Source: Cytophagaceae bacterium (GTDB lineage Bacteria; Bacteroidota; Bacteroidia; Cytophagales; Flexibacteraceae). From it: a stretch of 36,135 bases of DNA. A program made the position numbers and the translations under genes. The notes beneath the pieces are model-generated. The model worked only from the letters and a program-made list of their open reading frames with translations. It was not told where the DNA came from and searched no databases. Location of the stretch: the NCBI GenBank assembly GCA_947441055.1, contig CANETC010000011.1, positions 1 through 36,135 of the forward strand, given 5' to 3'. Shown here in pieces: positions 10,704 to 28,100 of the stretch (position 1 is the stretch's first letter; the number at the start of each line of letters is the position of its first letter).

Positions 10704-11900
10704 TTATCCTTCCTGTTCAGGATGAAATGAATTCTCGCTTTTGGCAATGACCAGCGTTGCCACTCCATTTCCAATCAGGTTGGTAATGGCCCTGGCCTCA
10801 CTCATAAATTTATCAACGCCCAGTAAAAAGGCCAGTCCTTCCAATGGAATGGTATGAAGGGATGCGAGTGTGGATGCCAGCACCACAAAACCTGAACCGG
10901 TAACCCCTGCTGCTCCTTTGCTTGTCATCATGAGAATTCCAATTAACACGGCCAGCTCCTGAAAACTAAGTGGAATGCTGTACAATTGGGCAATAAAGAT
11001 TACAGCCATAGAAAGGTAGATGGAGGTGCCATCGAGGTTGAATGAATAACCCGTTGGTACAACCAGACCAACAACCGGTTTGGCGCAGCCCATTTTCTCC
11101 AGTTTTTGCATCAGGCCGGGCATGGCCGTTTCGGAGGAAGATGTGCCAAGTACGATCAGAATTTCTTCCTTGATGGTGGACAAGAAATCCATGATGCTGA
11201 GTTTGAAATACCGCATAATTCCACCCAAAACCAGAAAAATGAAGAGGGCCATCGTGATGTATAAACAGCCCATTAGTTTGGCGAGGGGCACGATGCTTGC
11301 AAGGCCAAATTTTCCAACCGCAAATGCCATTCCTCCAAATGCACCAATCGGGGCAAAATACATCAGGTATTTCAGGGCAGTAAAAACAACATGAGAGGCT
11401 TTATGAAAGAACCCGAGAATTTTTTCTCTGCTTGGTAAGAAGGTGAGCAAGATGCCGCAAAAAATGGCCAGTAATAGAATTTGGAGGGTTGTGTTTTCCT
11501 TAAGAAAACTGCCCCAATTGAAACCATGCTCCGCTTTTTTTACATATTTCTCTGCACTTTGGATGGCAAGTCCGGTACGGTCGATTTCGCCGGGCTTTAG
11601 AATCAATGCCACGCCGATGCCAATAACCAGAGCAAGTGTTGTTACAATTTCGAAATAAACCAGAGATTTAAGTCCGATTCGGCCAACCCTTTTGAGGTTT
11701 CCCATGGAAGCAATTCCAGTAACGATGGTGAGGAAAATGATGGGCCCGATGAAAAGTTTGATGGCCTCGATAAATCCTTTTCCAAGCACTTCGGATTTTA
11801 CACCAAGTTCGGGTTTGTAATGCCCCACAAGAATGCCAGCCACTATGGCGAGCAGCACATAAAAGGTGAGGTGACGAAAAATAGGGTGAATTCGGTTCAT
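10704..11900 (-). CDS. DctA-like dicarboxylate/amino acid:cation symporter
   Basis: This 398-residue inner-membrane protein belongs to the DAACS family, which imports C4-dicarboxylates, aspartate or glutamate with protons or sodium. Diagnostic segments are the re-entrant loop region LGTSSSETAMPGLMQKLEKMG, the TM7 motif NLDGTSIYLSMAVIF, SKGAAGVTGSGFVVLAST and GVDKFMSEARAITNLIGNGVATLVIAK. NLDGTSIY and the last segment are more like the dicarboxylate branch (DctA) than the glutamate branch, so succinate, fumarate, malate or aspartate are likely substrates. It is the last gene of the eight-gene minus-strand unit, six bases after the porin gene. Its presence as a second C4-acid-type carrier in the same unit suggests that such acids are products or substrates of the pathway. 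Confidence 0.9.
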   Translation of the reverse strand: MNRIHPIFRHLTFYVLLAIVAGILVGHYKPELGVKSEVLGKGFIEAIKLFIGPIIFLTIVTGIASMGNLKRVGRIGLKSLVYFEIVTTLALVIGIGVALILKPGEIDRTGLAIQSAEKYVKKAEHGFNWGSFLKENTTLQILLLAIFCGILLTFLPSREKILGFFHKASHVVFTALKYLMYFAPIGAFGGMAFAVGKFGLASIVPLAKLMGCLYITMALFIFLVLGGIMRYFKLSIMDFLSTIKEEILIVLGTSSSETAMPGLMQKLEKMGCAKPVVGLVVPTGYSFNLDGTSIYLSMAVIFIAQLYSIPLSFQELAVLIGILMMTSKGAAGVTGSGFVVLASTLASLHTIPLEGLAFLLGVDKFMSEARAITNLIGNGVATLVIAKSENSFHPEQEG

Positions 11901-11906
11901 GTGATT

Positions 11907-13082
11907 TTAGAATCCAGCCTGGAACATAAGTTCAGAATACAACATTGCAGGCATTCCGGGAATTTGCCTTTTACCTGCCATTGCCTGAAGTTTCATACGG
12001 TTGGTTCGGAAATATTTGCCAATATGAACCGCCAGGTCTTTCGTTGTTTTTAGTTTGGAATCAGTTCTTGAGAATTCAGGACTTAGTTTCTGGTAACGGG
12101 CATCCAGTGAAATGCCATTTGCAAATACATATCCGGCCTGAAGGTTCAGCCCTGAGCCAAGCACCAGAAAGGAGGAAATCTGACCGGGTTGTAGAATCCT
12201 GGTGTTGCCACCGAGGCTGTCGGTTCGAAGTCCGGATAGAGCCGAGGCTGTGGCCAAGGTAAATTCGCCGAGAATGGAAAATCCTTTGTACTTCAGGAGG
12301 AGGTCTGCGCTTAATTTTCGATAATCCGGATAGCGAACTTTTTTAGTGCTGTCGAAAAGACTGAAGGTTCCATGTCCTTCGCCTTTTTCATTGCTTGCAC
12401 CTTGGTTCCAGCTGCCAGCAACTCCCAAAAGCAATTTTGGTTTTTGTTCCCCTTTAATGTCCGGGGAAAGTTCGCGGTTGCCTTCAGAAAAATCACCCAA
12501 AGGATAAAAATCGAGTCGGCCACCAATTTTGGCTCCACCGAGATCTACATCTGTTGAATTGATGCCGAAAGAATTTGGACCATCGCCAGAGGTAATTGCC
12601 AGCATGGGAACAAACAAGGCTTTTTCACCAAATCGTCCTTCTGCAAACAAGCCGAACTCACGTCCATTTCCGCAAAATGCATTGCTCACAAGGCTTCTTT
12701 CGGTGAAGGCAAATTTGTCTTCATCAAAAGTCATTTCCCGGTTGTTTGTGAAAGTTCTTCTTTGACCGGCTGATACTGATAAATGTTTTCCATTCCATGC
12801 GGCATAGGCATCCAAAAGGGGAGTGGAGGCACTGAAATCGGTTCGCACCATGAAAGAAATCCGCTCCTGAAATAAGGATCCCGAAAACCATAAGTAGGAT
12901 CTTTTGGATCTAAGGGAATTCGCAGCTTTCTGGCCTTCGGTTTTTTCCATCTTCCAGGAAGGCTGAAGGAATCCATTGAAGCTAAATTGTTTCTTTTCCG
13001 GAGTGGAATTTTCCTGGGCAAAAGCCGGCAGAGCGAGCCAAGCAAGCAGGCTTGTTTTCAATATTTGGCTGATGGTTTTCAT
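11907..13082 (-). CDS. Outer-membrane porin (Porin_O/P-like), second copy
   Basis: The 391-residue protein has a signal peptide ending PAFAQ and then FSFNGFLQPSWKME, the start typical of the phosphate-selective-porin-like OprO/OprP superfamily found in Bacteroidota. Other shared elements are NREFGLF-type motifs (here GREFGLFAEGRFG), TSGDGPNSFGINSTDVDLGG and RLDFYPLGDF, and a C-terminal aromatic residue (QAGF). A 16-strand trimeric barrel passing small anions or charged solutes is the expected fold. It is clearly related to the porin at 14682-15989, from which it is separated only by the carboxypeptidase gene. Its start overlaps the carboxypeptidase stop by four bases (ATGA). Substrate is unknown; the neighbourhood points to peptides or dicarboxylic amino compounds. 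Confidence 0.8.
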   Translation of the reverse strand: MKTISQILKTSLLAWLALPAFAQENSTPEKKQFSFNGFLQPSWKMEKTEGQKAANSLRSKRSYLWFSGSLFQERISFMVRTDFSASTPLLDAYAAWNGKHLSVSAGQRRTFTNNREMTFDEDKFAFTERSLVSNAFCGNGREFGLFAEGRFGEKALFVPMLAITSGDGPNSFGINSTDVDLGGAKIGGRLDFYPLGDFSEGNRELSPDIKGEQKPKLLLGVAGSWNQGASNEKGEGHGTFSLFDSTKKVRYPDYRKLSADLLLKYKGFSILGEFTLATASALSGLRTDSLGGNTRILQPGQISSFLVLGSGLNLQAGYVFANGISLDARYQKLSPEFSRTDSKLKTTKDLAVHIGKYFRTNRMKLQAMAGKRQIPGMPAMLYSELMFQAGF

Positions 13083-14677
13083 TTGATTGAAATGGCTTTC
13101 ATGCTTCGGTAAACCGGATATTCTGAATTCCTGGAAATGCCTGAAAAGCGAATCACTTTCACCGCCAGAAATCCATTTGGATTCTCGGGTTCAAGCAGTT
13201 CGCAAACCAGATTTCCCTTGTCCTGATTGAGATAAATCACATAAGTACCCGCTGGGAAATTCTTCAATCCAGACTTAAGACTCGCATTTCCTTTGGAAAC
13301 AGATTTCGAATCTTCTTCGTCCTGATTGTCGTCTTCGTCATCAGCTTGGTTTCCCCAGCCAGGCACCTGATACGATTCCACCTCAGCCTCAAACTTATTG
13401 GAAATGCTATCCACCTGAACACCCAGAAGCCTAAGATTTTCAGCTGCTTTTCTTTCGCTTTTAGCCAAAATGTATGCCTTTGGTCTTTCTCTTTTCAAAA
13501 TTGGATAGGATTGAAGCGCATCGTGAATGGTTACCGGAATTTGAATTTCATTTTCGTTGTCCAGGTCAATCACCAGAAGGCTATCCTCCCGGGTCTTTCG
13601 CTCCGACAAAACCACCACTGGTTTTGTATCTTGGTGCGTGGCAGCCAGTAGCATTTTGATTTTCATTGGATTGGAATAGGCGCTGTTTAAATAAGACAGG
13701 GCCACTTTCCAGCCAGCCATCACTCTCCTTCGATATGACTTTCGATCCAATCCTACACCTCTGATTTCCAGCAAGGTGGAAAAGCAATTTCCCAAGGCCC
13801 AGTTGCTGGCGCTGGAGCGGGCATGCACAGAACCGAGATTGAACTCAACTTTTCCGCCATACTTCTGGGTTGTGAGGTAATCCTGAACTTTGTAGTGCAG
13901 GGTGTCGTTTATTAGGAATCTTTGTGCTGGCTCTACAAATCCCTCCCTGGTGAAATTGCGGATCGAATCCGGCACATTCAGGTTGCCAGAGAAAAGGAAC
14001 ATTGCATCGTAGCGGCTGGTGATTCCTGCCCTGCCAAATCGAGTAAAATCTTTACGGTAAGCCCGGTACTCGTGCAGGTCAAGAGAAACTTCCGGAGCAA
14101 AACGAGTCCATGCTTTTTTCAGTGCTATGGTTTCCGGCGAACGAAGACTTGTTTGATCCCGGTTCAGGTCTTTTCCATTGGCGGATTCCCTTTTTTGGAT
14201 TTCATAGCCGTCAATGTTGGCCATTGGGACAATTGCGATTTCAATCCTGTTGAGCAAGTAATCCAGGTCAGAGTTTTCTGCAAAACGGGAAATCAGGTAA
14301 AGAAGCGATTCTGTGCCGGCAGGTTCATCTCCATGCAGACCACCTTGGATCCATACCCGAACCTTCTTTTCTTTAATTTTTGGATTTGAAATGACGATCA
14401 GTGGAATATTTTTTCCCTTCTGGCTTTTGCCAATCATTTCCATGCTGAGTATATCCTTTTTTATCTTCAGGTTTTGCTGAAGGAAGGCCATCATTTCTTT
14501 ATAAGTGGTGAATCCGGATTTTTTTGAAAATGCCGGTGTGTTGATTTTCCAGTCATTGAGCAGCTTGTCGGAAAAATACCTTTCCGTGATGGATTCTGGT
14601 TCCGGGTTAAACTGTGCCAGTGCTTTTTGCGAAAGCAGAAGCAGGAAAAGGAAGCGTAGCGTTTTCTTGATTTGCAT
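13079..14677 (-). CDS. Exported M14-family zinc carboxypeptidase
   Basis: The product (532 residues) has a signal peptide (MQIKKTLRFLFLLLLSQKALA) and an M14 metallopeptidase domain at about residues 60-330. Zinc ligands are visible as HGDE (H115, E118) and the His of SLDLHEY (H202). NRD at 172-174 supplies the Arg of the substrate carboxylate site, and E304 in TLLEIRG is a fitting general base. The C-terminal 200 residues are an extra domain with an acidic DDEDDNQDEEDSK linker and no recognised family. It should act in the periplasm or outside, trimming C-terminal residues from peptides. It lies between two porin genes, four bases from one and overlapping the other, which suggests that the porins carry its substrates or products. 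Confidence 0.85.
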   Translation of the reverse strand: MQIKKTLRFLFLLLLSQKALAQFNPEPESITERYFSDKLLNDWKINTPAFSKKSGFTTYKEMMAFLQQNLKIKKDILSMEMIGKSQKGKNIPLIVISNPKIKEKKVRVWIQGGLHGDEPAGTESLLYLISRFAENSDLDYLLNRIEIAIVPMANIDGYEIQKRESANGKDLNRDQTSLRSPETIALKKAWTRFAPEVSLDLHEYRAYRKDFTRFGRAGITSRYDAMFLFSGNLNVPDSIRNFTREGFVEPAQRFLINDTLHYKVQDYLTTQKYGGKVEFNLGSVHARSSASNWALGNCFSTLLEIRGVGLDRKSYRRRVMAGWKVALSYLNSAYSNPMKIKMLLAATHQDTKPVVVLSERKTREDSLLVIDLDNENEIQIPVTIHDALQSYPILKRERPKAYILAKSERKAAENLRLLGVQVDSISNKFEAEVESYQVPGWGNQADDEDDNQDEEDSKSVSKGNASLKSGLKNFPAGTYVIYLNQDKGNLVCELLEPENPNGFLAVKVIRFSGISRNSEYPVYRSMKAISIK

Positions 14678-14681
14678 TGTT

Positions 14682-15989
14682 TTATAAGGAAAACACCAAC
14701 ATGATTGTTCCGCCTAAGTCGTTGCCGATGAGGGAGCGCCCATCCAAAGTTTGGGAGCCTGGTTCTGCAATGGAATAGGTTAGCGAGGCCTGGATTCTTG
14801 CGCCATAGCTTCTTTCAAGATATCGGGAGAATCCGAGTGTGAAAAATTTACTCCGGTTGTAATATGTTGGATTCCGTAAAAAGGAATATTGTGCCGGGAA
14901 AAGCCGGCAGAACCGGGCATCCACTGAATACAGGTTTTTGAACAGATATCCGGCTTGAAAATTTACTCCGCTTCCGAGGATCAGACGGTTTCGAACATAC
15001 GCCGGCATGTCCTGAAGGTTGTTTACCAAAAATGTGCTTGCGCTTGAACCATCAGTTCGAATCCTGTTGTAGATGGAAGCAGGAACACTGGCGGAAGATT
15101 TTACCCATTCACCTGAAAGCGTAAATCCGCGGTATTTCAACAGAAAATCAGCACCGATTTTGGTGTAATCGGGCAGCACTTCCTTGCCCAAACTATCGAG
15201 GTAAATGTAAGTGCCGCTTTGGCTTCCTCTTCGGTCGCTTATGCCTTGGTTGACGCTGCCAAAAACCCCAGCCACCAGTTTGAGTGTTCTTTCCCGTTCC
15301 ATATCAACTTCACGCGAAGCGCCACCATTGGCGAAAGATCCGAAAGGCTGAAAATCCAGACGGCCTCCGAATTTGAGGCCACCGCGGTCTTTTGAAAAAA
15401 CATTTGGGCCATCTCCATTGGTTACGGAAATGGAAGGAAGAAAAATCGACTGCTTTCCAGTTCTGAATCTGCCATTTAAAAAGAATCCAAATTCACGCAC
15501 ACTTGAAAATGCCAGAGCAAGCGGACTTCTTTCTGGAAACTGTAAGGCACCTGAAACCATGGTCATTTCCCGGCTGTCGGTGATGGAGTTTTCTTGTCCA
15601 GCTACAATTTCCAATTGTCTCAGTGGTTTCCATGCAACCCAGGCGTCCATCAGGTAATTGTTGGTTGTAGCATCGCCACCACCATCCGAATTGCCGGTTA
15701 GGTCAATCTGGAGTTGGTATTTGATGGCTGCATCCTTTGCAGAACCACTCAATCTGGCCACCATCCGACGAATGCGAAAGCGGGTTGATACACCATTATC
15801 TGCCATTTTTGGGTAGTCTTTAAATTCTACCATGGGCTGAAAAAAGCCCCCAAGTTTCAAGCTGGCACCTGAAGATGTGGTGAAACTCAAACCTTCGCCC
15901 GCCTGATAGGGTGAAATTTTTGCGAATTGAGCCATGCCCTGAAAGGCCGACAACATTGTAAAAAACAACAGCTTACGGGCTTTCTTCAT
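14682..15989 (-). CDS. Outer-membrane porin (Porin_O/P-like), first copy
   Basis: The 435-residue protein carries a signal peptide (MKKARKLLFFTMLSAFQGMAQ) and the features of the OprO/OprP-like porins: GASLKLGGFFQPMVEFKD near the start, FRIRRMVARLSGSAKD, DAWVAWKPLRQLEIVAGQ and NGDGPNVFSKDRGGLKFGGRLDFQPFG. It ends in LVFSL with an aromatic near the last position, as expected for insertion by the BAM complex. It is a diverged paralogue of the porin at 11907-13082, and both match the same TNGDGPN/GRLDF pattern. It starts nine bases after the IadA-like gene and ends four bases before the carboxypeptidase. Likely role: outer-membrane entry of the solute handled by this unit. Confidence 0.82.
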   Translation of the reverse strand: MKKARKLLFFTMLSAFQGMAQFAKISPYQAGEGLSFTTSSGASLKLGGFFQPMVEFKDYPKMADNGVSTRFRIRRMVARLSGSAKDAAIKYQLQIDLTGNSDGGGDATTNNYLMDAWVAWKPLRQLEIVAGQENSITDSREMTMVSGALQFPERSPLALAFSSVREFGFFLNGRFRTGKQSIFLPSISVTNGDGPNVFSKDRGGLKFGGRLDFQPFGSFANGGASREVDMERERTLKLVAGVFGSVNQGISDRRGSQSGTYIYLDSLGKEVLPDYTKIGADFLLKYRGFTLSGEWVKSSASVPASIYNRIRTDGSSASTFLVNNLQDMPAYVRNRLILGSGVNFQAGYLFKNLYSVDARFCRLFPAQYSFLRNPTYYNRSKFFTLGFSRYLERSYGARIQASLTYSIAEPGSQTLDGRSLIGNDLGGTIMLVFSL

Positions 15990-15998
15990 TGGAATGGC

Positions 15999-17138
15999 TT
16001 ATTCGAAAATTCCTTTGATGAGGATTTCTCCGTCCTGCATCATCACCTCGCCTTTGGCCACCACATCGCAGAGCTTAAGCTGCTCGTCGAACAAGCAGAA
16101 ATCTGCATCGCTTCCAACTTTAATTCTGCCTTTGTTTGCCAAAGAGAGGTTTTTTGCCGGGGTACTAGTTACCGGTTTTAAAGCTTCAGAAATGTCGATT
16201 CCGCCTTTCTGAACCAGTTCGCGGAATTGCACCAGGTTTTCACTTACAGGTGCTTTGGCGTATCCACGATTTGCTCCGTTTTTAGAAGTAAGTCCTGCAT
16301 GGCCGTCGCTGCTGAAACTAATGTTGTCAAGGGAAATCCCTTTTTCTCTTGCTTCCATCACCGACATCCAAGGTTCAATGTATTTGGATGCACCTGTTGT
16401 AACATCAATGATTCCGCCCAAGCGTGCGAATTCGAGTGACTGCTCAAAAAGCGCCTTTGTGCGGCCTACATGGGTAGGGGAAATATGTCGAATTGGGAAC
16501 TGGTGTTTTTTTACAATTTCCAGCAGGATATCCATTTTGGAATCCAGCGCGCCAAGGTGGATGTGAAGTACACCACCTTTTCCGGATGTGAGTCCACCCA
16601 CCATTACATCGCGGAGGTGGCGCAAAAGCTCAGTTTCAGTAGGGTAGGAGGAGCGCTCATCACAGATGGCCACTTTGCAGCCAATGATTTTATCAATAAA
16701 AAGAATGTCCTCCAGTATACTACCGGTGAGGGTAACAGGGTCGATGCCAAAATAGCCTGTATGCATGTAGGTAGACATGCCTTCAATTTCCAGGGCCTTG
16801 GTTTTGGCGTAAAGGGTTTTAAGACTTCTTGCACTTGCATCCGTTCCCAGCAAACCAACCGCGGTGGTTGTGCCACATGAAATAAAGTCACTGAGCATTA
16901 TTTCCGGTGTCATTGACGCGAAACCATTTTTTCCGCCCGCACCGATCAGGTGTGTGTGCTGGTCAATAAAACCCGGTGTCATGATTTTGCCTTTGCAGTC
17001 GATGATTCTTGCAATCGATGCCGGCACCTCCAGGTTTTTCCCAATGGCAATTACCTTTCCTGCCGCGGTGAGTACATCAGAATCTCCTGCGAAATCAGGC
17101 TGGTATAGTTTTGTATTTTTAAAAAGGGTCAGCATCAA
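15999..17138 (-). CDS. IadA-like isoaspartyl dipeptidase / amidohydrolase with altered pocket
   Basis: This 379-residue cytosolic enzyme aligns along its length with E. coli isoaspartyl dipeptidase IadA (390 residues), which cuts beta-aspartyl dipeptides to aspartate and an amino acid. With a constant offset of seven residues, all binuclear metal ligands are kept: H61, H63, K155 (carbamylated Lys), H194, H223 and D278. R162 and R226, the carboxylate-binding arginines, are also kept. However, E77 of E. coli is K70 here, Y137 is F130, and S289 is G282; from what I recall of the IadA structure these contact the substrate. The enzyme is therefore probably active but may prefer a different amide. 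It overlaps the DcuC-type gene by four bases. I leave out the symbol iadA because of the pocket changes. Confidence 0.85.
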   Translation of the reverse strand: MMLTLFKNTKLYQPDFAGDSDVLTAAGKVIAIGKNLEVPASIARIIDCKGKIMTPGFIDQHTHLIGAGGKNGFASMTPEIMLSDFISCGTTTAVGLLGTDASARSLKTLYAKTKALEIEGMSTYMHTGYFGIDPVTLTGSILEDILFIDKIIGCKVAICDERSSYPTETELLRHLRDVMVGGLTSGKGGVLHIHLGALDSKMDILLEIVKKHQFPIRHISPTHVGRTKALFEQSLEFARLGGIIDVTTGASKYIEPWMSVMEAREKGISLDNISFSSDGHAGLTSKNGANRGYAKAPVSENLVQFRELVQKGGIDISEALKPVTSTPAKNLSLANKGRIKVGSDADFCLFDEQLKLCDVVAKGEVMMQDGEILIKGIFE

Positions 17139-18502
17139 AATAAGAAGTTAATACACAACATCACCACAAGGCCGAGGCAAAGTGGAATGAGGTTTCGTTT
17201 TACAATATCCATCGGACTCACTTTTGCGATGCCTGCGATCGCAACAAGAATTCCGGCAATGGGAGAAACAGTTCTGCCCATGGAGGCTGCAAAGGCCATC
17301 GGCAGGATGATTTTTACAGCATCATAGGACAAGCTGGCAGCAATTTCGGGTACCAAAGGACCGAAAGCGAAAAAGGCGGCATTTCCACTTCCCATTAAAA
17401 TAGAAGCCAGAAAAATCATGATGCTCATCACAATTCCAATGCCGGCGCCACCCAATCCGAAGTGCATGCAGGTGCTTGTAAGGCCAGAAATAAAACCGAG
17501 TGAAATCAGGCCTTTTGCGAAAATGTCAGCGGCCACAATGAGTAAAATAACGGAAGCGAAATTCTCCGTCATGCCCGACCAAAATGATTCCAAGTCTTTG
17601 AGGATTTCCTTTCCGGGTTTTCTGCGGATGAATTCGATGGCAATGGCAAATACAGTTCCGCTCAGCATGGCCACATTGGTGTCGATTTTACAGATGCCTG
17701 GTGCAATGCCCATGAAGTCGGAAAAAACCAGCAACATCACCAATGGGATTAAAGGAAGTATGCCATAAATAAGGGGCGACTCCGTCAAGGTCAATCCTGT
17801 TTTTTCGAAGGATACTTCTTCTCTTGGAAGGTTTTTGTCCAAGATTTTATTCACTACAAGGAAGGAGACAAACAATATGCTGGCCACAACCGTCACCATT
17901 GGAACCTGGTATTGAAAGAAGAATTGGGTGACATCCATTTTCAGGACTGACGAAGCACTCATCGCAATGGCGGATGCTGGGCCAATTCCGAAAGCAGTGG
18001 TGGACATAATCAAGGATGCCGCAGAAAGCCTGCTTACCCCAAGGTTGACCATTATAGGGTACATTGTGGCCATAAGCAGAAGTCCAAGTCCGGCGGCAGA
18101 AGTAATGCTGATAAACAGGAATTGCCCAAATGGCATCACCAGTGTGGCCAGCATGTAGGGGTATTTTTTGAAGAATGCCAATGGCACCATGGCAAGTCTG
18201 ATCAGGGAATTGCTTGCGCCAATCTTGTCCATATAGGCCAAAAACCCGCATATCACCATGATGACCAGTCCGACGCCAGAGTTAATCTCTACCATTGTCT
18301 CGGCCACCATTTTGAAAATATCCAAGATGGCAAGTCCGGTTGGCTTTTCAGGTTTCAACGCATTGCCTGAAAGGAACGGTGCGATGAAAAGCATTGACAA
18401 ACCTGCCAAAAACAGGACTGGAACTGAGGGCAGTTTCTTCACCAGCAGCCATGCAACTGTGGCTATGAAAAAGATTGAAATTACCGGCCCAGCGAATTCC
18501 AT
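17135..18502 (-). CDS. DcuC-family C4-dicarboxylate-type carrier
   Basis: The 455-residue inner-membrane protein matches the DcuC family in length (E. coli DcuC 461). Characteristic segments are KMVAETMVEINSGVGLVIMVICGFLAYMDKIGASNSLI, FISITSAAGLGLLLMATMYPI, TTAFGIGPASAIAMSASSV, and near the end SPIAGILVAIAGIAKVSP. Members exchange or export C4-dicarboxylates such as succinate, fumarate and aspartate. It starts 16 bases after the LTD lipoprotein gene and its stop overlaps the IadA-like start, so it is inside the operon. It could import the amide substrate or move the dicarboxylate product; the sequence does not decide which. Confidence 0.85.
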   Translation of the reverse strand: MEFAGPVISIFFIATVAWLLVKKLPSVPVLFLAGLSMLFIAPFLSGNALKPEKPTGLAILDIFKMVAETMVEINSGVGLVIMVICGFLAYMDKIGASNSLIRLAMVPLAFFKKYPYMLATLVMPFGQFLFISITSAAGLGLLLMATMYPIMVNLGVSRLSAASLIMSTTAFGIGPASAIAMSASSVLKMDVTQFFFQYQVPMVTVVASILFVSFLVVNKILDKNLPREEVSFEKTGLTLTESPLIYGILPLIPLVMLLVFSDFMGIAPGICKIDTNVAMLSGTVFAIAIEFIRRKPGKEILKDLESFWSGMTENFASVILLIVAADIFAKGLISLGFISGLTSTCMHFGLGGAGIGIVMSIMIFLASILMGSGNAAFFAFGPLVPEIAASLSYDAVKIILPMAFAASMGRTVSPIAGILVAIAGIAKVSPMDIVKRNLIPLCLGLVVMLCINFLF

Positions 18503-18518
18503 GTTTTAAAAACTGATT

Positions 18519-19577
18519 TTAGAATGGATCGCCGTTTGTTTTGGTCCCGGGTGAAAATAGTTTTCCGGGATTTGCACCTGCATGTTGCACAAATCCTCCT
18601 GTAAAATCGGGGTTGCGCGTGTAGGATTCATTTGGGTTACCTGAAAGGAGGTAGCTACCAAAACTGGCGATGGTTTTTCCATCTTTATCCTTGAGCAAAA
18701 TTGTTTCCAAGGTGTTGTTGAGGCTAAGGCCGGTGTTGCCATTTTGTGCAACAAAAATGCTGGCTCCTCCAAAATTCCCGGTAGGCGTTCCGCCTCCAAA
18801 AACCACGACACAATTTTTTGCCTGAAGAATGGTCCCGCTTGGAAAAGTAAATCGGGAGGTTCCGTTGGCTTCCGTCGTATCGGCATCCCAAATGCTGTAT
18901 CCGGAAATATCAGTTGGCGCCTGGCTGTTGTTCAGAATCTCAACAAAAGAATCAAGTTCCTGGCTGTATACGCCGTCCCCGTTTGCATCACCATCCAGTA
19001 CGGTATTCGATGGGTCGTATAAAACTTCATTAAAAATTAGACCCACTCCCGGCGGACAGCCACCATTGCTTGCATTGCCGGAATCCAGAGGACAAAGGTC
19101 ATTCGCATCGGGAATGTTGTCGTTGTCCTGGTCCGAATCAATGTCGGAAATCAGGATGGCAAGGTTTGCTGGATAAACTCCTTCTACTTTGCCTGGTGCA
19201 GAAAACGAGAGCTTGATGGTTTCATCACCTTCTACTTTTCCATCCGTTAAAATCTTAATCCGAATGATAGCCGTATCCTTCCCTGCGGCAATGATCAAAC
19301 TTGGATCAAGCAATTGAAAATCTTCCCCGACAATTGCTGAACCACTGATTTGAACCTGAATTTGTAGGTCTGCGCTCATTGGACCGTTCAGTTTTGCCCG
19401 GATAAGAAAGGTTTTGCCTTCACCAATTCGGTTTCCATTCAAACTATCAGAAGAGATTTCTGCAATTGGAAGGATGTCGTCTGTTTTACAGGATTGAAAT
19501 CCAAATGCAGCCAGAAATACGATTGCCAGCTGGAGGAATTTCCAGCAATTGGCTTTAATGCGGTTTAGAATCATCAA
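18519..19577 (-). CDS. Lamin-tail-domain lipoprotein with Calx-beta-like domain
   Basis: The 352-residue protein has a short membrane-export signal ending in FGFQSC (Cys about residue 30), a plausible Bacteroidota lipobox. Residues about 35-145 resemble a Calx-beta domain (DGKVEGDETIKLSFS). A thrombospondin type 3-like calcium motif with DSDQDNDNIPDANDLCP follows. The second half is a lamin tail domain (LTD): LIFNEVLYDPSNTVLDGDANGDG, VEILNNSQAPTDISGYSIWD and VVVFGGG. The last 50 residues (NPNESYTRNPDFTGGFVQH, KLFSPGT) closely match the LTD protein encoded just before it. LTDs of bacteria occur in surface or secreted proteins. The start overlaps the preceding gene by four bases. Role in the operon is unknown; surface substrate binding is a guess. 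Confidence 0.75.
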   Translation of the reverse strand: MMILNRIKANCWKFLQLAIVFLAAFGFQSCKTDDILPIAEISSDSLNGNRIGEGKTFLIRAKLNGPMSADLQIQVQISGSAIVGEDFQLLDPSLIIAAGKDTAIIRIKILTDGKVEGDETIKLSFSAPGKVEGVYPANLAILISDIDSDQDNDNIPDANDLCPLDSGNASNGGCPPGVGLIFNEVLYDPSNTVLDGDANGDGVYSQELDSFVEILNNSQAPTDISGYSIWDADTTEANGTSRFTFPSGTILQAKNCVVVFGGGTPTGNFGGASIFVAQNGNTGLSLNNTLETILLKDKDGKTIASFGSYLLSGNPNESYTRNPDFTGGFVQHAGANPGKLFSPGTKTNGDPF

Positions 19578-20407
19578 TGCTTCAAAACAAAGACTTGACT
19601 CTTTTTGCTTTCTACGACATAAATGAAATACAATCCTTCCGGTGCATTGCCCATTGAAATGTTATTTCCAGCGTGCTCGATATTGAGGATTTCTTGACCG
19701 AACAAGTTGCTAATGCGAATTGTTTTTCCTTCAATTTCAGCTGAAATCTGGAATTCACCATTCCCTGGATTCGGGAAAATCAGAGAACTTTTGTCTCTGA
19801 TATTTCCTGAAATGCCAGTTTGGGTATTGAAAGGAGAACCATTTACATAAGTTCCAGGTGAGAAAAGCTTTCCTGGAGTTACAGATCCGTGTTGAACAAA
19901 TGCACCGGTAATGTCCGGGTTGCGGGTATAAGATTCATTGGGGTTGTTGGAAAGTGCATTTGAATTGATCGAATCAACCCAGTTTCCAGAACTATCTGCC
20001 AAAAATATTTTTTCCCCTGAGTTCCCAAGGCTAAGTCCCAAGGTTCCTAAATCAACCTCTACATGGGCGCCGCCGAAAGAGCCGATTGCAGTTCCGCCTC
20101 CAAAAACAACCAAGGCTCCACCAGGAGGTAAAATCAGGTCATAACCCATTGTATGGCGAAGTGTTTTTAATCCTGTGATGGTGTCATGGTCGTAAATGCG
20201 GTAACGACTCACATCAAGATCTGCGCTGGAAGTATTTACAAATTCAATAAATTCATCCTGAACCTGGTCATAAAAACCGTCTCCATTCGCATCTCCTTCA
20301 AGACCTGTATTCGACGGATCGTAGAGAACTTCATTGATAATCAGTTGTGCATTTGCACTTGTGAAACACAGATAGCAGACTGTAAGGAGTAGAAGTTTTC
20401 TAAACAC
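19574..20407 (-). CDS. Secreted lamin-tail-domain protein with T9SS sorting domain
   Basis: I start the gene at the GTG at 20405-20407, since this gives a clean signal peptide (MFRKLLLLTVCYLCFTSANAQ). The open frame continues to an ATG at 20551, but that would cross the divergent promoter region. After the signal comes a single LTD (LIINEVLYDPSNTGLEGDANGDG, FIEFVNTSSADLDVSRYRIYD, GALVVFGGG). The shared NPNESYTRNPDITGAFVQH/KLFSPGT segment follows, and then a type A T9SS sorting domain (SLIFPNPGNGEFQISAEI to FVLKH). The mature 277-residue product should be exported to the cell surface. It is the first gene of the eight-gene unit, divergent from the MocR regulator. Function unknown. Confidence 0.78.
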   Translation of the reverse strand: MFRKLLLLTVCYLCFTSANAQLIINEVLYDPSNTGLEGDANGDGFYDQVQDEFIEFVNTSSADLDVSRYRIYDHDTITGLKTLRHTMGYDLILPPGGALVVFGGGTAIGSFGGAHVEVDLGTLGLSLGNSGEKIFLADSSGNWVDSINSNALSNNPNESYTRNPDITGAFVQHGSVTPGKLFSPGTYVNGSPFNTQTGISGNIRDKSSLIFPNPGNGEFQISAEIEGKTIRISNLFGQEILNIEHAGNNISMGNAPEGLYFIYVVESKKSQVFVLKH

Positions 20408-20454
20408 GGTGATTATTTTTAATAATGACTTGCAATTTATTCCGAGAAGGCGAA

Positions 20455-20492
20455 ACCAATTTGTAGTTTTGGGCAAGACCAATTTTTGTTTT
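20455..20492. promoter_or_regulatory. Direct repeats between the MocR gene and the operon, candidate operator
   Basis: ACCAATTT occurs at 20455-20462 and again at 20478-20485, 23 bases apart; both continue into GT-rich and T-rich sequence (GTAGTTTT and TTGTTTT). MocR regulators such as GabR bind direct repeats near their own divergent promoters, so these are good operator candidates for the regulator encoded at 20567. A -7-like TAGTTTTG at 20464-20471, reading towards that gene, overlaps the first repeat. Confidence 0.55.
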
Positions 20493-20496
20493 CGTT

Positions 20497-20529
20497 CAAT
20501 TCTAATACAATTGGCCTTCATTGTCCAAA
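20497..20529 (-). promoter_or_regulatory. Candidate promoter of the LTD-to-DctA operon
   Basis: On the minus strand TTTG (20529-20526), 21 bases, then TAGAATTG (20504-20497) resembles TTTG-N19-TANNTTTG with one mismatch and a slightly long spacer. Transcription would start near 20490, about 80 bases before the GTG start, so that the ACCAATTT repeats lie in the early transcribed region, a repressing position. Confidence 0.4.
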
Positions 20530-20566
20530 TGGCAATCGAGTTTTCTTTCACTGTTTCCTAATTGAC

Positions 20567-22045
20567 ATGTTTTCTTTTGCAATCGAGCTAATTCAGGAAA
20601 AGCTTTCACAGCGGCAGTCTGCAGGGAAAGGCGGGCTTTACATTGACCTTTATGAGTCGATTCGAAGCCTAATTGAAGATTCTATGCTGCCTGATGGATA
20701 CCTTTTGCCTCCAAGCCGGATTTTGGCAGAAAGGCTTGGTTTTTCGAGAAGCACAATTGTAAAAACATACGCACTACTGGTTCAAAATCAGTTTATCGAC
20801 AGTCGTCAAGGTTCTGGAAATCGGGTTGCCGGTCGGCAAATTGAGGATGTGAATGACAACAGCAGTTCAAAGCAATTTCCGCCGATTTCGGCTTCGGGAA
20901 AATCCTTTTTGGAAAACTCCGGCAGCCTTTTGCCTTCTTCCACCAATGCGCTGGCATTTACTCCAGGATTACCACCGGTGGATATTTTTCCAATCGGGCA
21001 ATGGCAAAAACTAACCAATGATTATTGGCGGACCATTCGTTCGGCCGATCTTAATTATTCCATCTCCTCCGGAATCGATGCCTTGAAGCAATCTCTTTGC
21101 AATTATCTTCGTCTTAGCCGAAGAATTGTTTGTAATCCCGAGCAGATTGTGGTGGTGTCGGGATCCCTTCAATCGCTATACCTATTGGGCTCGGTTGTGG
21201 TAGAAAAAGGTGATTCTGTGGTCCTTGAAAACCCAACCTTTCCCAATGTTGCCTCCATTTTTAGAAGTCTTCAGGCGAAAATTTTGCCTGTTGAAGGAAA
21301 TGGGAATGGCATGGATGTAGATTCTTTGGAAGCATATTCGGGGCGAGGAGTGAAAATTATTCACTGCACGCCTTCCAACCACTACCCAATTGGAGGAAAA
21401 ATGAGTTTGGAAAACCGCTTAAAACTGATTCGCTGGGCGGATGAGAATGCAGCTTTCATCATCGAGAATGATTATGAGCACGAAATCAACAATTGGCAGG
21501 ATCATACAGATTCTATTTTTAGCTTAGATAAAAGCCAACGAACCGTTTTTCTGGGAACCTTCAACAGAATCCTTCACCCGTCTATTCGACTTGGTTATAT
21601 GATTTTGCCTCCGGCCTTGATTCCCGCAGTGAAGGCTTTGCAAATGCATTCACATCGATTTGTGCCTCAGGCGCTTCAGGTGGTGATGGCTGGATTCATC
21701 GACCGCAATTATATTTTTAAACATGTTCGGAATGTGGTTGAAGAGGCAGTGGAGCGCCGAAAACTATTTGTGGATAATTTTCAAAAACAATTCAGTGCTT
21801 CCGATTTTGTAATCAAGCCTGCCTCTTCTGCGGGTTTTCATCTGATTGTAGATATTCCTTCTGATGGAATTACGGACAATCAAATGGTGGATTCCCTTAG
21901 TCAGCGGAACATTGCTACCCATTCTCTTAGTCGTTGCTATATCAGCGGCGTTCCGCGGCAGGGCCTCATCATTGGGTATTCATGTGTTGGCAAAACTTCT
22001 ATGCTGCAGAACATCCAAAGGATGGCCGGCGTTTTGGCTTATTGA
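20567..22045 (+). CDS. MocR/GntR-type regulator with aminotransferase domain, PLP Lys missing
   Basis: The 492-residue protein (start ATG at 20567; the frame extends upstream to 20486 with a poor N-terminus) has a GntR winged-helix domain at about residues 1-90 (LYIDLYESIRSLIEDSMLPDGYLLPPSRILAERLGFSRSTIVKTYALL). A fold-type I aminotransferase domain fills the rest. PLP-pocket features are kept, such as SGSLQSLYLLG and NDYEHE with D302 for the pyridine nitrogen. The Schiff-base Lys is absent: GTFNRILHPSIRLGY has Asn-Arg (R334) where GTFSK is usual. Family members bind direct repeats and respond to an amino compound reacting with PLP. This protein may sense its ligand in another way. It is divergent from the operon and followed by a terminator. 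Confidence 0.85.
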   Translation: MFSFAIELIQEKLSQRQSAGKGGLYIDLYESIRSLIEDSMLPDGYLLPPSRILAERLGFSRSTIVKTYALLVQNQFIDSRQGSGNRVAGRQIEDVNDNSSSKQFPPISASGKSFLENSGSLLPSSTNALAFTPGLPPVDIFPIGQWQKLTNDYWRTIRSADLNYSISSGIDALKQSLCNYLRLSRRIVCNPEQIVVVSGSLQSLYLLGSVVVEKGDSVVLENPTFPNVASIFRSLQAKILPVEGNGNGMDVDSLEAYSGRGVKIIHCTPSNHYPIGGKMSLENRLKLIRWADENAAFIIENDYEHEINNWQDHTDSIFSLDKSQRTVFLGTFNRILHPSIRLGYMILPPALIPAVKALQMHSHRFVPQALQVVMAGFIDRNYIFKHVRNVVEEAVERRKLFVDNFQKQFSASDFVIKPASSAGFHLIVDIPSDGITDNQMVDSLSQRNIATHSLSRCYISGVPRQGLIIGYSCVGKTSMLQNIQRMAGVLAY

Positions 22046-22154: not shown

Positions 22155-25100
22155 TTAACGAATCACCATTTTCTCCATGAAGGAGTTGTGGCGGCTGTTG
22201 AATTTCACTGTATAAACGCCGCTTGGCAAACGGAAGTCGAATTCTTTCTCATTCAACTTGTTGCCTGAAAGGTTCATGCTGCTAGTAAATACTACCTTTC
22301 CAACCATGTCAATCACTGTAACCGTAGCATCCTGATCGGATACGCCGCTCACAGCAAGTGTTACCCTGTTCCCATTGCTTGGATTCGGATGGATTCCGAA
22401 GAATTGACCTTGAGCCAAGCCTTTCACACCTGTAATGGCAACTGGATTGAACACTAGTTCAAAACGATCGCTCATGGTCATGGTTGAAGCGTTTACTTCA
22501 AAACTGATTTCAGCATTCTCAACTACGCTTTCAATGGTATTGAAGAATTTGTCTCTCAAATAAACCTCAACGCCTGAATCAAATGTACTCAAATCGTTGA
22601 AGCTGAATGAGTAGATTCCGCTGCTGCCCATGAAATTGGTGGTGATCGGAACGATCTTCTGCTCATTGAGTGCGCCCATTGAGTTTACCATCAATTGCGT
22701 ATTGGCAACAGGGAAACTGAATGAGAAATTCTGACTCGCAAGGTTGGAGAAATCAAGCATTGGATCGAATCCGTCCGTTGCCTCTTCCATAAAACGAACC
22801 ACGCCAGAATAGTAGTAAGATCCGTTCAACTCAGGCTTGTTTAGGTTGATTTTTAACTTGCTCGTTGTGCTTGTGCTGGTTCTCAGGTAAGCACCACTAC
22901 TTGCAGTTTTAGCACTTTCTTTTACAAGCAAGCTACCAGTAGTTCCGGTGGCAAGACGAACAAAGAAGCCCTGACTTGATGGAATCACACTTGGATTTGC
23001 TGGCGCAGGACTTGCTCCTGTCCAACCCAAACCAGTCACATAAGAACCATATCCAAGTACACCATTGTACCTCCAGAATCCAGCCTGTAAATTGCCTGGA
23101 ATGGTCCAGCCTGAAGCGGCATCCCAGTCGATTGGAGATGGATACGGATTGCCAAGTAGGTTCCAACCCGTTAGGCCAAGATCACAATTGTAAGTAGCCG
23201 GAGAACAAACCGTGTTTACTGTGCGGCTAAGACTTGGGAAAGTGAAATCGTTTCTCACCAAGCTTCCCTTGGTGTCAAACTTGTGGAGAGCATTGGAGTA
23301 ATAATCCACATACACACGATAGCCAGTTCCAGGAGCCATGTTTCCGTTTGCTGGCGCAATCCAACCATTTTTCTGGGCAGTGTCAAGGCGAACATTGTTC
23401 TGAGGCTCATTGTAAGCAAATACTGTGTTCCTTTCTGGCTGGGTAACAGGAAGAATATCTCCACCCTGAGTTCCAAATCCTGAAGAAAGTCCACTTACTT
23501 TAAAGTCATCCGAAAGTTCTGTAAAGTTATTTCCGCTGAAAGGCGTACTCATCATGTACCAGCTTCCCGCGGCACTTGCTGCATTTGGAAGCCAGCGTTC
23601 CATGGTTATTACTCCAGAAGTAATGTTGGCAGTAGTTGGAATTGCTGCGATTCTGGCAGTTCCTGCTGCAGATGATGCAAGAACAAAGTTTCCGCTGTTG
23701 GTCAACTTACTGTTGGCAAGGAAGGTGGCAGTACCAGTCGGCTCGATGCTCAGTGTTGCGCCCGGGCTGATTACCACACCCGATGCAGAAGTGTTGGCAA
23801 AATCAACATTCGTTAAGCGAACAGTTCCTGAAATCGTTTGAAGACCAGTTCCGGTTAAAGCAACTTTACCATTTCCGCCGAAATAAGGGCCAGTATTTCC
23901 TGTTAAATCACCCCTCACATTAAGCTGAAAACCTGAGGCGATTTGAGGTTGTGCCCCATTTGCCAAGGTTAAGCTGGCGCAAACCGGTGTGCCATTGTTC
24001 AGATTCGGTTGATTTGGAGTTCCTCCTGGAATTACAACAGAGGTTCTGTTTGAAGGAGCACCATTGTTTGGTGTCCAGTTGTTGCCATCATTCCAATCTG
24101 AACTTGCAGAACCATTCCAAGTGACAAAGCAAGGATCTGGAGCTTCGATTGTAAGGCTGTCAAGTCCAGAAGTTAAAGCGGTACAACCTGTAATGGTATT
24201 GGTCAAAGAGGTAATCAAATATTTCTTCCACTCTTTTGAAGTTGGAGAATAACTGGTAGTGTATGGATTGGAATGCAAGCCCTGGCTTGTCAATGCCCCA
24301 TTTACCAGTGCTGTAGCAGCAGCTTCCGAAACGGTTGAAACGCCTGTTGAATAACCCATGCTCCAGGAACTTGCATTTGTCACATCAAAATTGATGTTTA
24401 CTGTTTGATTCAAACAAACGAAGTCATTGGCATCAATTTTAACTGAAGGCCTTGGGTTTACATACAAGTTAACTGCGTTGCCACTGCTTGGGTTAAGACT
24501 GCAATTTGGACTTGAACTGGTGATGGTGATGTTGGTAATTTCAAGACTTTGACCATCGTTTGCAAGCAAGGCCTGAATTGGAAATGAGGTGCTAGTTCCG
24601 GCGGCCGTACCACCGAAACCGGGTGTCTGAGCCACACCGCCTATGCTGTAATCGAATGAAAAAAGACTGTTGCTCAACAGACCGCTTAGATTAATCGTCG
24701 AAAATTGCCCATCGCATGAATTTCCAGTCTGGGTAACTGACGTTATTGTTGGATTTGGATTCACAGACAGTGAAACACTGTTGCCGGTTGAAAAACTATT
24801 TGAGCAAGATGGTGTTGCATCTGTTCTGGTTAGGCTAGTGATGGCAAGAACCTGTCCATTGTTGGCAGTTGTAAGTGCTACTGGTGAATTGAAACTTGCT
24901 TCTCCTGATGAATTAGAAACCAGACCGGTAAATGGGGCCTGTGCTATTCCATTCACAGTGAAGGTCACCGTAAATGTGGCTGATGGAAGCAAACCTGTTA
25001 GTTCAAATGTAGCAATGTTTCCACTGCACACGGTTGCTTGAGTAATTGCACCAAGGCTTGGTGCCGGTGAAAGTGTTACGGTTTCGGTTGCGGTGTTGCT

Positions 25101-28100
25101 ACATCCGTTTGCATCTGTTCCTGTTACAGTGAATGTGGTAGTTCCGGATGGTGTGAAAGCAACATTGTTTGTTACTCCGTTATCCCATGTATAAGAAACT
25201 GCGCCGCTTCCGTTCAAAGTAACCTGGCTTCCGGTACAAATGGTATTCGCAGAAGCAGAACTACCTACTGTTGGAAGGCTGCTTACAACAACGCTTGCAG
25301 TTGAAATTGAAACGCAACCGTTAGCATCTGTGATGGTCACGGTGTAGTCACTGCTTCCTGCAACCAGGCCGGTGGAAACACTTGGATTTTGAACTGTGGC
25401 AGAGGCTGTGAAAGTTCCATTGCCTGTCCATGCGTAAGTTGGGGAACTCATCGATGCATTTGGACTTACCGTCAAATTAAGTGTACCATTTAAGCAAACC
25501 GGGGAATTTGTTCCAACTGTTGGGTTAACAAAAGCTGTGAAATTTCCGGCATCAGCCCCAATGTCGTTTGGTGTTAAACTTGATCTTGTTTGACCATCAA
25601 AATCGTCGGTTAATCCACCGATTGCAACTCCGTTTCCTTCTACTTGGGTTACAGCAGGTGAAACCTGAATATGTAAATCAACTGTAGCCGCGGTGCCGGT
25701 AGGCGCCTGAAGTTTTGGATCGCAACTTACACTCGAGCCATCTTGTCCGGTTGCGGTACGGATGGAAACGAGGTCATCACGGTCAATGCCATTGTAAAGA
25801 ACCAAAAATCCATTTGATCCGTTTGCGAGATACAGATTGTTGTTGTTTGTAAGGCCAGTAGGGTTGGCAATGGTTCCTCCAATCTGGGCAGCATAATGCT
25901 TTCCTGTGACTCCACCATTTCTTGCATTAAACCAGATGTTGTTCTGAAAGGCCCTTGTATTTATCGTTCCAGTTGAAGCAAAAGCAGCAGTATTGGAGGT
26001 TGTTCCGCTTACAGATGTTCCACCTATGTACACTGTATTGTGGTAATGTGCTATGGTTCCTGAGCTGGAATTTAACATACCGAAAATGGCATAACCGGTA
26101 GAAATTCCAGTTCCGGCTGCATCTACACCAAGGCGCACCATGTTGTTTTGTACTGCTACCGGGAAAGCGCCAGTAAGAACTCTGATTCCGTACATGGCGG
26201 CAGTCGTAGAGCTTGTTGCTAGGCTGAAACTGTGTACAAAATTCTTTTCAATCAGGTTGGTTCCAGTTGTAGGACCTGTATAGTAAATTCCTTGAACAAC
26301 AGCAGCTGCACTTGCGTCTGTATTGCTCAAACTGTGGATGGTATTTCCGGAAATGGTTTGGCCTGCAGTAGTGGAAGCCTGCCAGATTCCGATGTTACCG
26401 GTAAGTCCTGCAGATGCAGAGATGTTGTTGCGGATTGTATTTCCAGAAATTGTATTGGCCCCTCCATCTGTACGAATCGAAATCATGCGGCCAGTTCCGG
26501 AATTCATGTTGGAAATGGTGTTGCTGATGATAATATTGCTTAAAGTTGAGCTAGCCAAATAAATGCCCCAGGTGTCGCCCGTTGTATTGTTTTGAATGGA
26601 ATTGGCCGTGCTTGCACTTCCTATGTTGTTGTTGGAAATGGTGTAAGTGCTGGCTGCTCCAGTTGCATAAATTCCTGCAACAGCAATGGTGGCTGCGCCA
26701 GAAGTACTTGCGCTGAGTGATCCAATTGAGTTGTTGGAAATTGTCATGCTACCAGGCGTTCCTACACCGGCAATAATGCCACTCAATCTTGGGGCAGTTG
26801 AACTTGTAGTTTGGGTGAGGCTTACGCTACCAGTTCCTGTTGCACTTCCAAGAAAGTTACCAAGTATGTCAATTGCACCTGTTACTGCAGAAATAAGGGA
26901 CTGGTTTGCAGAGGTACTGGAACTGCTGATGCTGATGTTCTTAATTGTATTTCCTTGAATGCTGGTTGCTACGCTTGTTCCTACTTGGGCAAAAATACCG
27001 CGAAGTACAATGTTGCCGGTTCCATTGTCAGCCAAACTCATGGCAGAACCACCACAACTTGCGGCACTGCCGCCGATAAAGTTGCTTGAAATTACAAGTC
27101 CGCTTACTGTTGAAGCGGTTGTAGGACTAATGCCGATACCGGCCCAGTTGCGGTCTGTACCGGAAGTAAGTGTGCGGGCAGCGGTTTCGTAAATGCTGTT
27201 GCCGGAAATGGTCCAGTTGGTGGTATTGTCAGAAATGTAAATTCCATAACTGTTTCCGGTAGCATTGAAGAAATCGTAAATATTATTGTTCGATATTGTG
27301 TTGTTGTCGTTGGGAAAGCCGGCCGATCCAACAGAACTGATGCCTACATTTGGCAGGTTACCAGTGCTGCTATTGAAAACATCACAATTTGTTATGGTAT
27401 TGCTGTGGTTTCCTGAAGTTGAACTGGTGCTGAAAGTTACACATCCGGAGGCAGCCCCGATGTTTGAACTCCTGAGTTTGCAATAGCGAACGATGTTGTT
27501 CTGGGCACCGTTGATGAAGGTAATGGCTGTTGAACCAGCCAGGGTGTTGTCGGTATTTTCTACGGTTAGATTCTGGGTAGTTCCGGTTCCACCAGCGCGG
27601 CCATCAAGTCTCCAGTAAGTTCCTGCGTTGATGTTGATAATGCCATTTCCGTTTTTAGACCCACTGATGCTGAGGTTGCTGGCTCCAGATGCCGGACGGA
27701 TGGTGATGGTATTGGCAGCACTCATACCGCTAATGGCTCCAAGAACCAATGGAAAAGATTCACTTGTACTTACATATCCGCTATTCAACTGAAAAATTGT
27801 TGCTTGGGTAACAGGGCATCCGCTTATGTCATTCAAAGCATCTGTTAGGTTGTTGTAAATACTGCCATCTGTGCGGGTTAGGCTTGGGTCGATTTGTACT
27901 GTGGCCAAAAAAGTTGGGCAACCGTTTGTGCTTTTGGTTGCAATGAGCGGTGATGTTGTATTGTAGATCGGACCACCAACACAACTCGTTGCATTATAGG
28001 AATACACATAAAAGTCATAACTGGTGCTGATGGAAAGACCGGTTGCTGTAAAGCTGGTGGCCGCTCCGGCGTACACAACTGTACCTGCGCCAAGGGCAGT

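Follow-up and report, generated by a model that had tools for sequence, protein, structure and literature searches.

The locus described here raises one question: what does an enzyme cleave when it has the fold and metals of an isoaspartyl dipeptidase and lacks the residue with which such dipeptidases hold the alpha-amine of their substrate? The gene lies in a stretch of 36,135 nucleotides, hereafter the window, and belongs to a group of neighboring genes collected in Table 1. We call its product IadA*, a label used here for the K70-type relative of IadA.

Table 1. Features of the locus in the window, with positions, strand and the evidence for each assignment.
Feature	Position	Strand	Evidence
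DctA-type C4-dicarboxylate symporter, Ser367	10704..11900	-	PRK01663, 488 bits, below its own cut-off of 513
Second porin	11907..13082	-	Sequence cluster 3, shared with 14682-15989; without Pfam match
Exported M14 zinc carboxypeptidase-like enzyme	13079..14677	-	PF00246, 5.5e-21
Porin (Porin_O_P-like), 9 nt downstream of IadA*	14682..15989	-	PF07396, 7.1e-06
IadA*, predicted IadA-fold metallohydrolase with K70/Y129/F130/E161/G282 pocket	15999..17138	-	TIGR01975, alignment, predicted fold
DcuC-family C4-dicarboxylate transporter	17135..18502	-	NF037994, 336.9 bits; PF03606
Secreted protein with lamin-tail domain (LTD)	18519..19577	-	PF00932, 2.2e-15
Second LTD protein, type IX secretion C-terminal signal	19574..20551	-	PF00932, PF18962, TIGR04183
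MocR/GabR-type regulator, divergent	20486..22045	+	PF00392 and PF00155 (wHTH and aminotransferase-like domain)

Fold, metal site and substrate pocket

IadA* is encoded by a single copy in its source genome, carries no signal peptide and passes the cut-off of the NCBIfam family TIGR01975, beta-aspartyl-peptidase (348.9 versus 331.25 bits). Counted from a TTG, its open reading frame gives 379 aa; the ATG at 17135, giving 378 aa and overlapping the dcuC stop as TGATG, is the more likely start. The closest solved structures are isoaspartyl dipeptidases. The AlphaFold model (pLDDT 91) superposes on E. coli IadA over its whole length (1ybq: Z 57.0, 2.2 A, 379 residues; 2aqo: 1.5 A), residues 1-379 being paired with residues 7-388 of the E. 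coli enzyme (1.5-2.2 A). As modeled, the protein is an IadA fold with an intact binuclear metal site. It shares this whole-length fold with the enzymes of E. coli (1onw/1ybq), Colwellia (5xgw), Leucothrix (8dqn) and Fervidobacterium (7cf6), from which it differs at 34-44% identity, and it has in common with them the two-metal site, whose residue 162 is a lysine like that of the E. coli enzyme, as well as D285, R169, R233 and T106 in IadA numbering.

An earlier note on this DNA had aligned the protein by eye with E. coli IadA at a constant offset of seven, and in a MAFFT alignment this offset holds at every named residue. The metal ligands H61, H63, K155, H194, H223 and D278 and the arginines R162 and R226 are kept, both in the alignment and in 99 of 99 clade members (in IadA numbering, the binuclear ligands H68, H70, K/E162, H201, H230 and D285 are present in every one), and T99 is kept as well. 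The substitutions that the note had listed were likewise recovered: E77 is K70, Y137 is F130 with Y129 just before it, S289 is G282 and H168 is E161. The E. coli row in this alignment was the 2aqv sequence, itself a Y137F mutant, and the wild-type tyrosine was taken from the entry title. At the level of the fold, the superposition of the model on IadA showed no register shift that would place a Glu in the amine site; in detail, the position of K70 may not match that of Glu77.

These substitutions were followed through 99 relatives drawn from genome samples and from 80 contigs, nearly all titled Bacteroidota, a few genomes being in both sets. A pattern scan of genome contigs built from the single protein gave no match, and the contig relatives were found by an alignment-based scan; the contig scan used clade patterns and so does not sample canonical enzymes, a bias from which the genome samples are free. 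At position 77 the clade has K in 88 members, Q in nine, R and T in one each and E in none, and E77 is present in all seven canonical comparators, few as these are. Position 289 is G in 98 members and C in one, and position 136, an alanine in IadA, is Y in 94, F in four and S in one. Y137F and H168E are additional differences in the window protein: position 137 is Y in 58 members and F in 41, and position 168 is I in 46, E in 30 and other residues in the rest. Further specificity-type positions of the clade are A67, Y129, G131, S220, T248, G249, A281, N301 and N330.

In a maximum-likelihood tree the canonical rows fall on one side of a 100/100 branch, which, with the clade-wide residues, argues that the amine pocket was altered at the base of a large clade. 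The pocket changes lie far beyond chance and are a feature of the clade, no one-off. The suggestion that K70 and F130 define a clade thus held for K70, or another hydrogen-bond donor and never an acid in 99 of 99, but not for F130, which we reject as a clade mark given the 41 F against 58 Y and about four state changes on the tree. We also set aside an association between F130 and E161, which is seen in 30 of 41 F rows but comes down to two or three changes that are independent of one another; E161 changes state about 15 times on the tree.

The likely effect of these changes can be judged from the Colwellia enzyme, in which Glu80 and Thr109 hold the alpha-amine, Cys297 touches an oxygen of a carboxylate, and other oxygens of the substrate are bound by Arg173 and Arg237; the mutation E80Q (E77 in IadA) leaves no activity on beta-Asp-Leu, and Y140F (Y137) leaves less than 10% (PMC5517026). 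The window protein has Lys70 in place of the Glu77 that binds the alpha-amine of beta-Asp, a replacement that is never Glu in the 99 members, Phe130 in place of the catalytic Lewis acid Tyr137, and Gly282 in place of the Ser or Cys at 289 that contacts the alpha-carboxylate. Given the losses in the Colwellia mutants, IadA* is by analogy unlikely to be a working beta-Asp dipeptidase. Each of the four residues that occur at position 77 (K, Q, R and T) is a hydrogen-bond donor and none is acidic, which would suit a hydroxyl or a carboxylate there, not an ammonium. As the note proposed, the pocket therefore appears unfavorable to a free alpha-amine and re-cut for an acyl part without one. The scissile bond could be an ester instead of an amide, in which case the absence of Tyr137 from some clade members would be easier to bear. 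The protein is a clean example of how a pocket residue whose role is known has been replaced clade-wide inside a curated equivalog family.

The conserved locus and its link to PahZ1

The neighborhood of IadA*, which is unlike that of characterized IadA, recurs across relatives in the order surface LTD proteins, DcuC, IadA*, porin, M14, porin, then DctA or DASS, with MocR in addition. We compared 80 loci (79 contigs and the window), several contigs ending inside the locus, so that all counts are lower bounds: DcuC lies directly upstream of IadA* in 77, separated by a few bases or overlapping, a porin directly downstream in 66 (and anywhere in 71), M14 is found in 75 and LTD proteins in 60; a PahZ1-like hydrolase is encoded in 47, MocR in 45, DASS in 31 and DctA in 14, with no locus having both DASS and DctA. 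SusC/SusD replace the porins in some Bacteroidales loci. The dicarboxylate carriers, which the earlier note had mentioned as lying beside the enzyme, are thus part of the system, with DcuC upstream and DctA or DASS at a greater distance. Since the altered pocket marks a whole clade and goes with this locus, the observation is stronger than when first made; the conserved locus, the PahZ1-type hydrolase, the regulator without its PLP lysine and the possible ester bond are all new beyond it.

The M14 enzyme has the invariants HxxE, NR, H, E and RSS, and a fold search returned only the general carboxypeptidase A fold. The second LTD protein begins at a GTG that overlaps the divergent regulator reading frame, and its true start is probably further in; the regulator likely starts at a Met near 20567. 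LTD proteins in the window (18519-20551) and in the 60 loci share a recurrent NEVLYDPSN..DANGDG motif and stand mostly at the start of the locus, some of them carrying type IX signals; their role is perhaps polymer binding. A scan of the locus for promoters and terminators gave no more promoter-like sites than shuffled sequence, and a description of this operon was not found in the literature searched. Beyond the regulator, the minus strand encodes a 2352-aa protein (22155-29213) whose sole recognized feature is a type IX C-terminal signal; large related proteins are encoded close to the locus in three relatives (sequence cluster 8).

One neighbor is a recurrent 311-aa protein whose best PDB matches are poly(aspartic acid) hydrolase-1 (6ve6, 8e-52; 9o7u, 1.5e-47), followed by LpqC (3d0k, 2e-29). 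The aligned Ser, Asp and His are kept in nearly all 67 rows of these homologs and, with most conserved residues, are shared with PahZ1 of Sphingomonas KT-1 and Pedobacter KP-2, from which the locus proteins differ by an identity of about 36% and by N and R changes of their own. IadA* itself is no PahZ1; the two share loci. Among 395 genomes of the class, IadA* occurs in 11 (in one split across contigs), a PahZ1 homolog in 13 and both in 10, that is, in 10 of 11 genomes with IadA* versus 3 of 384 others (Fisher 1.4e-16). A PahZ1 homolog is also present in 15 of 17 other IadA* genomes. In Parabacteroides (L060:10804-13833; L145), a 1009-aa fusion beside IadA* combines PahZ1 (27-279), a DUF4886 domain (SGNH-type) and M14 (517-996). 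No PahZ1 homolog was found in the window's genome (89% complete) or in two congeners, so the IadA* encoded there may live on oligomers or on the products of another endo enzyme.

The action of PahZ1 from Pedobacter KP-2 is confined to beta-amide bonds and to substrates of three or more units; the enzyme prefers L-Asp and then D-Asp, and dimers are left over (PMC4456602). A pathway built on such an enzyme needs a dimer hydrolase, and IadA* fits that place since it has no signal peptide and a C4 carrier beside it; the logic of an endo cut that leaves dimers fits the locus. PahZ1 also resembles the PHB depolymerases, which cut beta-esters. In a further genome (G110; locus L161, 9732-19500), a PahZ1 homolog occurs with an SGNH-type hydrolase, DASS and SusC/SusD and without M14 or IadA*, possibly a second locus type for the same polymer.

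Signs of an amine-free unit and a candidate pathway

Two other proteins bear on whether the transported unit carries an amine. The regulator resembles MocR proteins of the GabR/EnuR type in its GntR DNA-binding domain, its aminotransferase fold and its divergent orientation from the cluster, and differs from them in that the PLP lysine (GabR K312) aligns with R361; Arg occupies this site in 59 of 60 homologs. In EnuR the counterpart lysine carries PLP and is required for induction (PMC8739950), and the regulator of this locus likely senses its signal independently of PLP. The DctA-type carrier has Ser367 where the aspartate transporter 9bgz has its amine-binding Asp, as do 18 of 18 covered homologs. 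The amine-binding residue of aspartate carriers is the one known as Asp394 in GltPh, and a Ser at the equivalent position is usual in DctA-type carriers, so Ser367 is no change made in this locus. The loss of Glu77, the loss of the PLP lysine and a DctA-type carrier with Ser together point to a unit without an amine, and three amine-avoiding proteins in one locus constitute a testable hypothesis.

We infer that IadA* is the last hydrolase in a pathway for a beta-linked C4-acid polymer or oligomer, to which we would assign a probability of about 0.7. In such a pathway, surface LTD proteins would hold the extracellular polymer, which the PahZ1-type hydrolase (in most related loci, not in the window's genome) and the exported M14 enzyme would cut to short oligomers. 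Porins would admit these anionic oligomers to the periplasm, and DcuC with DctA or DASS would bring C4 acids and dimers inwards. IadA* would then split the dimer with its two metals and D278, R162 and R226 gripping the half that leaves, and K70 would face a hydroxyl or a carboxylate where Glu77 of IadA met the amine.

The best reading of the polymer is one whose units have no amine, with poly(beta-L-malate) as first choice and beta-poly(Asp) as second. The backbone of poly(beta-L-malate) is that of beta-poly(Asp) with O for NH, and malate is favored because a malyl dimer is shaped like beta-Asp-Asp, with OH for the ammonium and an ester for the amide; the resemblance of PahZ1 to PHB depolymerases and the locus in G110 likewise favor an ester polymer. 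Polymalate occurs in nature and is used by some bacteria, but according to its description the Comamonas polymalate hydrolase belongs neither to the serine nor to the metallo esterases, which speaks against malate here (PMC9210645). That enzyme of Comamonas acidovorans (43 kDa, outer membrane) and the Physarum polymalatase share the proposed substrate. Also against malate, the only measured PahZ1 activity in the literature we reached is, to our knowledge, on an amide, beta-poly(Asp), and only about 36% identity links the locus homologs to the enzymes concerned. M14 is a peptidase by name and fold; carboxypeptidase A also cuts esters. An asparaginase II (PF06089) lies downstream of DctA at L057:15782-16822, members of its sequence cluster occur in L089 and L107, and the enzyme points to Asp. 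The absence of a PahZ1 homolog from the window's genome and two congeners likewise stands against this reading. We put forward poly(beta-L-malate), with IadA* as its cytosolic last hydrolytic step, as a tentative choice. It is possible, if somewhat doubtful, that the whole picture applies, in which PahZ1 is naturally a polymalate enzyme, an IadA has become a malyl-malate esterase through conversion of its amine pocket to one for a hydroxyl, MocR is free of PLP as the sensor of a signal without an amine, and the system is common in Bacteroidota. If true, a bacterial poly(beta-L-malate) pathway would here be described for the first time at the level of genes. The locus suggests what poly(aspartate) hydrolases, so far studied on synthetic polymer, may do in nature, and it supplies a concrete set of candidate genes with which bacteria of water, soil and gut could consume polymalate or a related polyanion.

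Other substrates for the altered pocket

The strongest alternative keeps the amine and moves it. Here the polymer would be beta-poly(aspartate), or else an oligomer of isoaspartyl units, and IadA* would be a dipeptidase for beta-Asp-Asp with changed stereochemistry, acting for example on beta-D-Asp-L-Asp, with amine and carboxylate swapped and K70 taking the carboxylate. The loss of S289, a carboxylate contact, together with E77 would be expected of such a swap, and the activity of PahZ1 was measured on beta-Asp oligomers (L-Asp, then D-Asp, with dimers left); M14 in 75 of 80 loci and, in a few, an asparaginase II beside DctA would also suit it. We know of no natural beta-poly(Asp), yet the locus is old and widespread; moreover, the clade has no specific acidic residue to receive the moved amine, E161 being present in only 30 of 99, and the PLP lysine of the regulator is lost. 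We regard this alternative as rather unlikely.

Less probable still is that IadA* cleaves another amide of an amine-free C4 acid, such as an amino acid bearing an N-malyl, N-succinyl or N-fumaryl group, or one whose acyl part has an extra carboxylate. DcuC would import it, and the polymer hydrolases would then serve a different branch of the same diet. This would accord with the C4 carriers found throughout the loci and with R162 and R226, kept in 99 of 99, whose counterparts in IadA bind substrate carboxylate oxygens, but it leaves the tight PahZ1 link and the PahZ1-M14 fusion unexplained. That IadA* is an ordinary isoaspartyl dipeptidase with a drifted pocket, correctly named by NCBIfam, has in its favor the TIGR01975 score and the like fold and metal site, and is very unlikely given changes that are conserved across the clade and not drift, single mutants at two pocket sites that abolish or cut activity in a relative, and a neighborhood that differs from those of the canonical IadA genes of this phylum.

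Cyanophycin use (beta-Asp-Arg) was set aside, since canonical IadA serves cyanophycin, position 77 here is never Glu, and the genes found in the locus are those for PahZ1-like and M14 enzymes and C4 carriers. Two further ideas, citryl amides (rhizoferrin, beta-citryl-glutamate) and succinylated polysaccharides, were dropped because nothing in the locus supports them.

Canonical IadA genes in other classes of the phylum (L064-L066) have different neighbors. Loci L011-L015, also from other classes, encode a canonical Glu77 IadA with Glu for the metal-bridging lysine (type I) and again have other neighbors. IadA* relatives themselves are numerous in Bacteroidota genomes, with at least 477 candidate stretches in one scan; they score as beta-aspartyl-peptidase and are probably misnamed as to substrate.
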